39,278 nt of DNA, from contig JAMCWE010000167.1 of the NCBI GenBank assembly GCA_023475265.1, forward strand, positions 1 to 39,278. Direction: 5' to 3'. This document shows, one piece after another, positions 6,269 through 39,278 of this stretch. Source of the DNA: Bacteroidota bacterium (GTDB lineage: Bacteria > Bacteroidota > Ignavibacteria > Ignavibacteriales > Ignavibacteriaceae). Both the position numbers and the translations under genes were made by a program. Numbering within the stretch: position 1 is the stretch's first letter; every line of letters starts with the position of its first letter. A model generated the notes under the pieces. It searched no databases, was not told the DNA's origin, and worked only from the letters and a program-made list of their open reading frames with translations.

Positions 6269-7775
6269 TCATCCATTTATTTTTTAGTCTTCTTCTGCGC
6301 TGATATCTGAAAATTCCGTAAGCAATAATTAAAAGTATAGGAAGTAAAAAGTTCAGATACTTCACTAATACTTTTGTGCTTTCTTCAATGTTAGCTTTTA
6401 TAGGTCGGGAATTAATTCCTTTGGTACGAAGTGAAATTAATCCGGTATCATCAGAAAGCCAATCAATTGCATTCGCCATTAAATTCACATTGTCCGGCTC
6501 AAGTCTTTGAGCATTTTGTCCTGAGCCATTAGTCGCAAAATCTCCGTTACCAAATACAACCATCTTAGAATAAATTCCGTTCTCTATTTTTCCATCAACT
6601 GCAACTGCAACAGACAATGAAGAAACCGGGAAATCGTTTTTAGTCCATTGTTTTGTTACTTCAAAGTATACTGGTGGGCGCTGAATTCCTGCTTTGTCTG
6701 AAGTTGATGCTAAAGTGACAAAATGAAGCAAACTATCTTTTGATGTATATTTTATAGGGCTTACGAACGGCATTAGTACTTGCACAATCCCCTTTGTTAT
6801 AGGATGATCAGCGAATTTTGTAATCATTGGTAAATAAGGAAATCTAACCGGCGTATTCATTACAAACATTCCCTGCTGCTGACGAACCATTACACTTCCG
6901 CAGTTAGCATCAATTACAAAACCATCTTCAACATCAACTCCTTTATTTTTCAACCAGTCACTTAAACCAATATTCAAACTTGAACCGGTAGCATTTTGCA
7001 AATTTCCTTTTACTCGATCAAGAGCTACTAAAATTCTTCCTCCTCTTGAAAGAAAATCATCAAGTTGTTTTAACAAATCAGGCGCAATCGTATCCTGCGG
7101 AGAAACAATAACAAGTGTCTTGTAGTCAGCCGGAATAGTAGTCGTATCAGTTAGCTGGACAGTGTTTACATCATAAAGGATTGAAAGCTGTTCATTAAGC
7201 TGCTGGAGTTCGGGAAGAGATGGTTCACCATTTCCTTGAAGGAAAGCAATTTTTGTTTTGTTCTTAAGTGATAATTTTTTAATTGTTGATGAAAGAGCAT
7301 ATTCCATAGCAGAACCAGGTTGGATTAATGGAATCCTTTCGGTACGACCTCGATACTCCAAAACTGCGCCTAAATAAGCACGCTGCTGCTTCATTTGATC
7401 TCGTTCACGCACATTGATCATAACCGGTTGAATTCCGGCCTGCTGCGCCTTCATCTCAGCTGCTTGATCTTTATTTGGATTTATAAAATCGTAAACGACT
7501 TTACCATCAGATTCATTGCTGTATTCAATCAGCATATCTTTAAAATCATTTTTTACTTGAGCTACATCCGGTGGAAGATTTTCAGAAAAATAAGCTGTAA
7601 CAGTAACTGGTGCATCTAATGATTTTAAAATATCATCGGTTGCTTTGCTTAAAGTATATTGATGGCCCTCTGTAAAATCAAGCCGCACAAAGAAACGGTC
7701 TGCGACAATATTTATCAATAAGAGGATACCAAAAATTAATGCGATTGTTGTAAATACTTTTTGTTTAGTCAGCAT
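6252..7775 (-). CDS. gldG: GldG-family ABC transporter accessory protein
   Basis: A 507-residue membrane-anchored protein with one helix near the N-terminus (residues about 10-28) and one near the C-terminus (VLVKYLNFLLPILLIIAYGIF), ending in a basic cytoplasmic tail (YQRRRRLKNKW). Between them is the GldG/IFT52-like extracytoplasmic domain: 'RLDFTEGHQYTLSKAT' directly after helix 1 and 'IAFLQGNGEPSL' at the start of the second half are hallmark segments. GldF and GldG form an ABC-2 transporter with GldA that supports gliding in Flavobacterium; homologues are widespread in non-gliding bacteria. The start lies 5 bases after the gldF stop. The transported substrate is unknown. Confidence 0.85.
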   Translation of the reverse strand: MLTKQKVFTTIALIFGILLLINIVADRFFVRLDFTEGHQYTLSKATDDILKSLDAPVTVTAYFSENLPPDVAQVKNDFKDMLIEYSNESDGKVVYDFINPNKDQAAEMKAQQAGIQPVMINVRERDQMKQQRAYLGAVLEYRGRTERIPLIQPGSAMEYALSSTIKKLSLKNKTKIAFLQGNGEPSLPELQQLNEQLSILYDVNTVQLTDTTTIPADYKTLVIVSPQDTIAPDLLKQLDDFLSRGGRILVALDRVKGNLQNATGSSLNIGLSDWLKNKGVDVEDGFVIDANCGSVMVRQQQGMFVMNTPVRFPYLPMITKFADHPITKGIVQVLMPFVSPIKYTSKDSLLHFVTLASTSDKAGIQRPPVYFEVTKQWTKNDFPVSSLSVAVAVDGKIENGIYSKMVVFGNGDFATNGSGQNAQRLEPDNVNLMANAIDWLSDDTGLISLRTKGINSRPIKANIEESTKVLVKYLNFLLPILLIIAYGIFRYQRRRRLKNKWMNEIYG

Positions 7776-38627: not shown

Positions 38628-38888
38628 CTATTTCAGCAAAATAAGTTTTTTCATCTCAACATAACTTCCCGCCGTCATTCTGTAAAAATATATTCCGCTT
38701 GAAAGATTGCTTGCATCGAAGGTTATTGAGTACTTGCCTTGAGATTTATATCCGTCAACAAGTGTCTTTACCACGTTGCCAAGTATGTCGTAGACTTTTA
38801 GCGTTACATAGCTGTACGCTGAAAGTTGATAGCTGATTGCTGTTGTTGGGTTGAATGGATTTGGATAATTCTGATATAACCTTGAAGC
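38628..38888 (-). pseudogene. Orphan T9SS type A sorting domain (truncated gene remnant)
   Basis: The minus strand encodes about 86 residues from a stop at 38889-38891 to the TAG at 38628-38630: 'LYQNYPNPFNPTTAISYQL' then 'YDILGNVVKTLVDGYKSQG', 'LSSGIYFYRM' and the end EMKKLILLK. This is a complete T9SS C-terminal sorting domain with no body in front of it; an in-frame TGA directly precedes it and the upstream DNA is unrelated. There is no start codon before the domain. It is likely the end of a gene broken by rearrangement, with the palindromic element at 38963 just 75 bases away. Confidence 0.75.
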
Positions 38889-38962
38889 TCACCGAAAATT
38901 AAATGTAACTTCGAAAGTTGCTTTGCATATTGTTTCGGCTGCAAAATTAAATACAGATCAAA

Positions 38963-39173
38963 ACTAAATGATTACTCACCTTACGCATGGGGTGGAGTTT
39001 ATAGCCACGACCTTCAGGTCGTGGAAATATAAGGCGCTCCGGATACTTGGGCTTTAGCCCCAAATGGATTCAAAATGTGGCTAAAGCCAAATTGTAAGTA
39101 TCTTATTTAATCCACGACTTAAAAGTCGTGGCTATGGGAAACCAAATAATGCGTAAGGTGAGTGATTATTAGT
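38963..39173. mobile_element. MITE-like nested-palindrome element (211 bp)
   Basis: Three concentric inverted repeats. Outer: ACTAAATGATTACTCACC followed by TTACGCAT (38963-38988) versus 39149-39173, with a one-base gap and few mismatches. Middle: 39002-39025 versus 39111-39134, about 20 of 24 matching, each itself a hairpin (CCACGACC TTCA GGTCGTGG on the left; CCACGACT ... AGTCGTGG on the right). Inner: GATACTT plus GGGCTTTAGCC (39042-39059) versus GGCTAAAGCC plus AAGTATC (39079-39102). No coding capacity is visible. The symmetry suggests a non-autonomous transposon or REP-type unit; no transposase is near. Confidence 0.7.
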
Positions 39174-39278
39174 CCTGACTTGTCCCCTGAAAAATATTTA
39201 AAAATTAAGTTATTGTTTTTTAATAGATTACAGAGGTAAAAAAAGTAATTTGTCGCACTAAGGAGCTTACCCCCCCCC
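39174..39278. other. Right end: no gene, terminal run of nine C
   Basis: About 100 AT-rich bases without recognisable features, closing with nine consecutive C (39270-39278). The run is out of character for this AT-rich DNA and looks like a contig end or an assembly artefact. Confidence 0.5.

Follow-up and report, generated by a model that had tools for sequence, protein, structure and literature searches.

A probable composite of an IS701-type inverted-repeat shell and a Y1/REP-like hairpin core at the end of a bacterial contig

Known gene-less repeats and the nested element of the window

Usually, MITEs and REP elements are assigned to two distinct classes of repeats, each with transposases of its own. 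The Correia and RUP elements and the Thiomargarita hupL MITE are gene-less, possess terminal inverted repeats and are associated with a target duplication, features that they share with the family of the element described here, but they differ from this element in their ends and in their parents. MITEs, REP units and RAYTs are already known (PMC2817692, PMC3733652, PMC8266576, PMC4853749), and the REPs of gammaproteobacterial RAYTs are listed in PMC2817692. The nearest known counterparts of the core are the REP, REPIN and BIME elements of RAYTs (TnpAREP) and the TIRYT units. RAYT units are described in PMC2817692, PMC3733652 and PMC8266576 with a linker enclosed by two hairpins of about 20 nt in inverted orientation, and also with such hairpins on either side of a Y1 transposase gene; the core of the present element and its gene-carrying relatives resemble these two arrangements, respectively. 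Searches of the open-licence literature returned no description of the composite reported here. Among the matches listed for its exact ends and motifs, none was about this shell as judged by title, and PMC2817692 was the only one on the topic. No article combining a nested MITE, REP sequences, a RAYT and an insertion sequence was found, nor any with a title on MITEs in Ignavibacteria.

The window, a stretch of 39,278 nt, is a whole contig (G000:C114) of a genome of 4.77 Mb that is assembled in 270 contigs and is 96.8% complete. A sequence-only reading had claimed three nested inverted repeats near its right end, and these were confirmed as real, each layer having an identifiable parent. An inverted-repeat search of the window revealed an outer pair (38967-38988/39149-39170, 22 nt, 91%), a middle pair (39001-39025/39111-39135, 25 nt, 88%) and an inner pair (39047-39062/39076-39091, 16 nt, 88%). 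The region 38930-39200 folded as a single strand with -52.5 kcal/mol, compared with a shuffled mean of -24.6 (z = -8.43), and none of 200 shuffles was as good. Each middle arm includes a palindrome of 20 nt (39005-39024 and 39112-39131), for which four matches with at most three mismatches were counted on both strands against 0.04 expected.

The same reading had delimited a unit of 211 bp at 38963-39173. Its nested repeats stand; positions 38975-39162 fit better as boundaries, enclosing 188 bp with exact 13-bp ends (Table 1). The additional 11-12 bp on each side are flank, and their partial self-complementarity stems from the preferred target TTANTAA, itself almost a palindrome. No ORF of at least 80 aa overlaps the nested-repeat element, in agreement with the lack of coding capacity that had been noted, and the neighbouring gene end described as a truncated T9SS gene was recovered as such, with a T9SS type A sorting domain (TIGR04183, 50.5 bits) on the minus strand, with an in-frame stop upstream. 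A target duplication, which had been proposed as a check, was found at 7 bp for the family (see below), but the window copy is flanked by the 6-bp direct repeat TGATTA alone, and its 7-mers at the family offset agree at one of seven positions.

Table 1. Coordinates of the element, its parts and its neighbours at the right end of the window
Feature	Position	Strand	Evidence and remarks
C-terminal remnant of a gene for a T9SS-secreted protein (neighbour, outside the element)	38628..38888	-	TIGR04183, 50.5 bits (cut-off 23); in-frame stop just upstream
Left flanking direct repeat TGATTA	38969..38974	.	Probable, imperfect target duplication; 6 bp match, family has 7 bp (TTANTAA)
Left terminal inverted repeat CTCACCTTACGCA	38975..38987	+	Exact inverted partner at 39150-39162; IS701-family elements with the same ends
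REP-like hairpin CCACGACCTTCAGGTCGTGG	39005..39024	+	Palindrome with 9-bp stem; covarying in 48 aligned units; type found beside Y1 transposase genes
Central stem, left half GGCTTTAGCC	39050..39059	+	16 of 37 genomes with the pattern, none of the 37 with its reverse; flanks Y1 genes
Central stem, right half GGCTAAAGCC	39079..39088	+	Same pattern search; flanks Y1 genes
Inverted REP-like hairpin CCACGACTTAAAAGTCGTGG	39112..39131	-	Palindrome; covariation
Right terminal inverted repeat TGCGTAAGGTGAG	39150..39162	-	Inverted-repeat and arm searches
Right flanking direct repeat TGATTA	39163..39168	.	Sequence
Left end of another insertion-sequence-like repeat (CCTGACTTGTCCCC..., C-tract)	39174..39278	+	Adjoins the element, outside it; cuts off the contig

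The contig stops 116 bp beyond the right edge of the element, within another repeat that starts at 39174. Copies of this repeat (97-98%) lie close to contig ends on C159 and C85 of the same genome, and it is also present in G009, G008 and G005; the copies in G009 and G008 (89-91%) run on into an ORF. The C-tract was present in all four copies read. At 39174-39278, and also in L275 and L276, nine C are followed by an A-rich stretch immediately before an ORF, and by eye this repeat has an IS1634-like appearance. The sequence-only reading had considered an assembly chimera at the contig end; since the repeat at 39174 recurs near other contig ends, it accounts for the contig end without a chimera.

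The outer shell and IS701-family elements

The arm CTCACCTTACGCA occurs 17 times with at most one mismatch in the window's own genome, compared with 2 occurrences of a reversed-pattern control, and five elements of this genome (window, C247, C68, C148 and C206) carry both arms with no more than two mismatches in total. Further copies, for which a search had been suggested, were present in other genomes as well: the 12-base arm was detected in 28 of the 59 genomes searched (own genome counted), with up to 81 copies per genome. In a genome collection, at least 115 stretches contained the arm together with the target motif, as did one viral contig, and the arm-bearing contigs among the matches listed were labelled as Ignavibacteria, Chloroflexi, Chlamydiae, Legionella and others. 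A shell element of 89 bp lies in the same-genus genome G011 (L053, contig position 6950).

Paired shell elements were collected, leaving out pairs with N, duplicates and pairs cut by a locus end, which yielded 86 elements, including at least two that look like chance pairs and were retained (L230:2360 and L241:1351). Perfect 7-bp direct repeats were present outside the ends of 50 of these, compared with a mean of 8.5 and a maximum of 16 in 200 shuffles, which ignore kinship. As 40 of the 86 elements came from loci selected by the target motif, the remaining 46 were tallied separately. Of these, 18 had a perfect 7-bp duplication, compared with a mean of 2.1 and no more than 6 after shuffling. 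Targets follow the consensus TTANTAA, in which the free middle base agreed in 65 of the 86 pairs and in 32 of the 46 unselected ones. The duplication of the shell family is 7 bp long, with 8 bp in a few copies as judged by eye. An empty site, the other check that had been proposed, was found for a family member: G012:C189 is uninterrupted where G007:C4 holds an element between two copies of TTAATTA. For the window copy none was found, the best same-genus match (G004) aligning at query positions 2-650 alone, which is the upstream gene (80%). Shell interiors folded at z < -3 in 62 of 86 cases, compared with 2 of 86 flank controls. The exact core was present in 3 of the 86 shells and absent from 83, and many shell interiors were unrelated. 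One shell family of G007 and G012, with the interior CCTCCGAGGTTTTCCTAAACCTCGGAGG, has reached dozens of copies; a single query gave 58 and 48 matches, respectively, with flanks and both strands included in the count.

Full elements with this terminal inverted repeat are about 1.15 kb long and encode a single DDE transposase that scores above the cut-off (250 bits) of NCBIfam NF049921 (IS701 family, IS701_2). Three such elements with the same ends, L115 (333 bits), L213 (326.7 bits) and L259 (325.5 bits), represent the kind of autonomous partner for which a search had been proposed. Such full-length elements occur in a Legionella MAG (L115), in a Berkelbacteria MAG (L213) and on a Piscirickettsia plasmid. 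Intact IS701-type relatives with near and variant ends were detected in G038 (324.9 bits) and G003 (328.5 bits). The IS701_2 cut-off was passed by only 2 of the 59 genomes. No transposase over it was found in the arm-rich genomes G005, G033, G012 and G045, and the sole IS701-type copy found in the window's own genome is frameshifted (C38). A search of solved structures with the transposase revealed no relative up to E = 1. The gene-less length of 188 bp, the exact 13-bp ends and the IS701-family partner support the MITE-like character that had been ascribed to the unit.

Just upstream of the IS701-type copy on C38 there is a group II intron (RF00029, 55.7 bits; L281, positions 54-203). At the ends of C80 and C223 (L282 and L283), the arm CTCACCTTACGC runs directly into an identical sequence beginning with GTGCGCC, which resembles the consensus of an intron 5' end, as if the terminal inverted repeat were an intron homing site.

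The hairpin core, its Y1 relatives and the composite

The middle and inner repeats together make up a single core module. From left to right it comprises the 20-nt palindrome, a stretch of about 23 nt, GGCTTTAGCC, a short loop, GGCTAAAGCC, a second stretch of about 23 nt and the inverted palindrome. The central pair was detected in 16 of 37 genomes, and its reversed-pattern control gave 0 in all 37. With the centre fixed by the search, a strong REP palindrome was present on 81 of 106 flanking sides, compared with 1 of 106 after shuffling. In an alignment of 48 of the 53 modules, the local hairpins were 92% paired and showed many two-sided changes, percentages here leaning slightly high because L299, L306, L307, L317 and L337 had been left out by hand. 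Covariation over the whole structure of the 48 modules was 0.312 versus 0.084 in shuffles that ignore kinship, the central stem being uninformative in this respect because it had been searched for exactly. Long-range pairing from hairpin to hairpin reached 77.8% (shuffled 73.4%) with a covariation of 0.184 (shuffled 0.130), above all 500 shuffles, in which kinship was again ignored. Given this strong local and much weaker long-range pairing, it is apparently the small hairpins that are maintained, whereas the concentric look seems to follow for the most part from the inverted order in which they are placed.

The core module also occurs without the shell. A third small palindrome of the CCTGCCTACCGGTCAGGCAGG type is inserted within the REP-like hairpins of L301, L306, L307 and L316, and similar palindromes were seen inside the broken transposase gene of C38. 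Moreover, the module was observed in a shell of another kind with GTGTTGCAGAAC-like arms (L279 (G000:C119), L309, L311, L314, L321, L323 (G011)), which suggests a second carrier of the core.

Module parts were found on both sides of a Y1 (IS200-like) transposase gene at five loci of related genomes, none of them in the window's genome. At L377 (G045) and L378 (G038), which are PF01797 loci, the order is hairpin, GGCTTTAGCC, Y1 gene, GGCTAAAGCC and hairpin. L375 (G019) has the same order plus an extra centre half, and at L348 (G003, cut by the contig end) and L349 (G005) the order or number of the parts is changed. Three of the five were recognised on both sides by an automated motif scan, and the other two in separate analyses. 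For a tree of Y1 proteins, 66 loci gave 47 with a Y1 ORF and, after two had been dropped (<85 aa or N), 45 proteins; the five module-flanked proteins formed one clade with a support of 98/96. L422 was rejected as a sixth locus, having a lone one-sided motif, no flanking hairpin that could be found and a position elsewhere in the tree. The window's own genome yielded nine Y1 matches with six ORFs, none of the six with the module and one of them at a contig end. The surroundings of the autonomous Y1 units revealed no suitably placed shell arm. Other same-genus Y1 loci (L343, L347, L352, L359, L364 and L366) have flanking hairpin families of their own (for example CCCAGTCGTAAACGACTGGG, CACCTAACTGAAGTTAGGTG and GCACAGACTATTAGTCTGTGC). 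The module parts around Y1 genes together with the single Y1 clade make the window core look like this Y1 unit without its gene.

A correctly oriented shell arm accompanied 28 of 51 modules, 13 of them on both sides and 15 on one, compared with 0 on both sides and 6-7 on one in the controls; four of the 51 (window, L073 twice and L112) had been fetched for their shell arms, and the remaining 47 gave 10 and 14, respectively. At 23 of the 51 modules no shell arm was recognised. The spacing between shell end and hairpin was 15-18 nt on 30 of 35 sides at 23 loci, close relatives included, and is 17 and 18 nt in the window. A control with reversed ends gave five matches, all at 11 nt, so that a shared spacing can arise from relatedness alone. 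G012 and G007 contain six full composites on different contigs that are 83-97% identical from end to end, five of them with perfect 7-bp duplications (L073, L112, L303, L304 and L306) and the sixth, L305, with 8 bp by eye. L301, which has an extra insert, is 77-83% identical to these six. Three composites with the variant end TGGAGTTACGCA occur in G039 (92-97% identical), and the composite of the window shares 69-73% identity over 110-114 bp with the G012/G007 type. The near-identical composites with duplications of their own indicate that the composite travelled as a single unit in these relatives, and, as the spacing stays similar whichever end variant is present, a single ancestral composite is favoured over random insertions that took place repeatedly. 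The unit had been called more elaborate than a simple MITE with terminal inverted repeats, and it proved so in a way not proposed then: a second, unrelated mobile unit of the Y1/REP type is present inside the shell.

Interpretation and comparison with known systems

The best explanation, to which we assign a probability of roughly 0.85, is that positions 38975-39162 (188 bp) represent a composite transposable element, non-autonomous and made of an IS701-family (ISAba11-like) MITE shell and a gene-less Y1 (HuH, RAYT-type) core. Because of the end sequences, an IS701-type transposase is the presumed mover of the composite. A DDE transposase of this type, acting in trans, would bind to the 13-bp ends and cleave there, and the excised unit would enter TTANTAA-like sites with a 7-bp duplication as the result. 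The core hairpins would represent remnants of a Y1 transposase system and possibly still serve as substrates, so that a Y1 protein could still act on them. We infer that the window copy was once mobile; at present it is probably inactive, given that the assembled genome yielded no intact transposase of the IS701 or the Y1 kind.

The 83 shells without the exact core and the many unrelated interiors imply that the shell needs no Y1-type core, as would be the case if the unit were an ordinary IS701-type MITE and its interior hairpins had arisen incidentally, from nothing but base composition or local inverted duplication. This account is improbable, however, given that the core parts flank Y1 genes, that the core occurs without the shell and at a near-constant spacing from it where both are present, and that the hairpins are kept via compensatory changes. 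Conversely, an element of the REPIN/BIME type could have been moved solely by a Y1 transposase, its outer arms being chance or passive flank. Such an origin agrees with the match of the core parts to Y1-flanking units and with the existence of modules without recognisable arms, yet IS701-family elements end in these arms, which are accompanied by 7-bp duplications and are also found around interiors that lack this core; we consider it the least credible of the biological alternatives.

A structured RNA or a bidirectional transcription terminator, kept for its function at gene 3' ends, seems scarcely more credible than the latter. Its strong folding, its covarying hairpins and its position outside recognised genes would be in keeping with such a role, but no Rfam family reached the gathering threshold in the window, the hairpin type sits beside transposase genes, and insertion is evident from the target duplications of the family and the empty site of a family member. 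Finally, the distance of 116 bp from the contig end might raise suspicion of an assembly artefact; as composites of this plan are present in other genomes at a distance from contig ends, and the repeat that terminates the contig recurs in other places, the chance of this is negligible.

Beyond the composite reading, we advance a more speculative and, in our estimation, rather unlikely proposal. The DDE-type shell and the Y1/HuH hairpin core might form a stable two-system element, evolving as one unit with near-fixed spacing that is usable by two unrelated transposases, one through double-strand cut-and-paste via the ends and the other by acting on the hairpins as single strands. On a wider view, IS701-type shells might serve as general vehicles between which hairpin cargo is exchanged across many phyla. 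The latter idea derives from the interiors folding at z < -3 in 62 of 86 shells versus 2 of 86 flank controls. What is at hand is a recurring element that carries recognition-like sequences of both the MITE and the REP class in a near-fixed geometry in several genomes, and an end sequence from contigs of many labels that is tied to one transposase family. If both halves were usable, this would constitute a natural system for the spread of hairpin repeats without a gene of their own and for the build-up of hairpins inside MITEs.

Among insertion sequences, the shell is similar to ISAba11: an ISAba11-annotated element (L260) matches NF049921 with 394 bits and has 13-bp ends (TAGGACTTACGCA) with the inner CTTACGCA in common. 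However, the outer five bases of its terminal inverted repeat are unlike those of the shell, the L260 copy is compatible with a 5-bp duplication (ATATA) whereas the shell family has 7 bp, and the window element, in contrast to an ISAba11-type insertion sequence, is gene-less. In the available parts of PMC4853749 and PMC3733652, other bacterial MITEs are described without a nested Y1/REP core. The core itself would work like a RAYT unit. Unlike classical REPs it has no GTAG or GT(A/G)G head, most aligned units having TTGCC/TAGCC instead (hairpin after TTG or TAG), and it is therefore classified as RAYT-like and set apart from the classical GTAG REP. It further differs from REP, REPIN and BIME elements by the GGCTTTAGCC/GGCTAAAGCC stem between its hairpins, which was also the search key, and by its location, in the window, inside a DDE-type shell.
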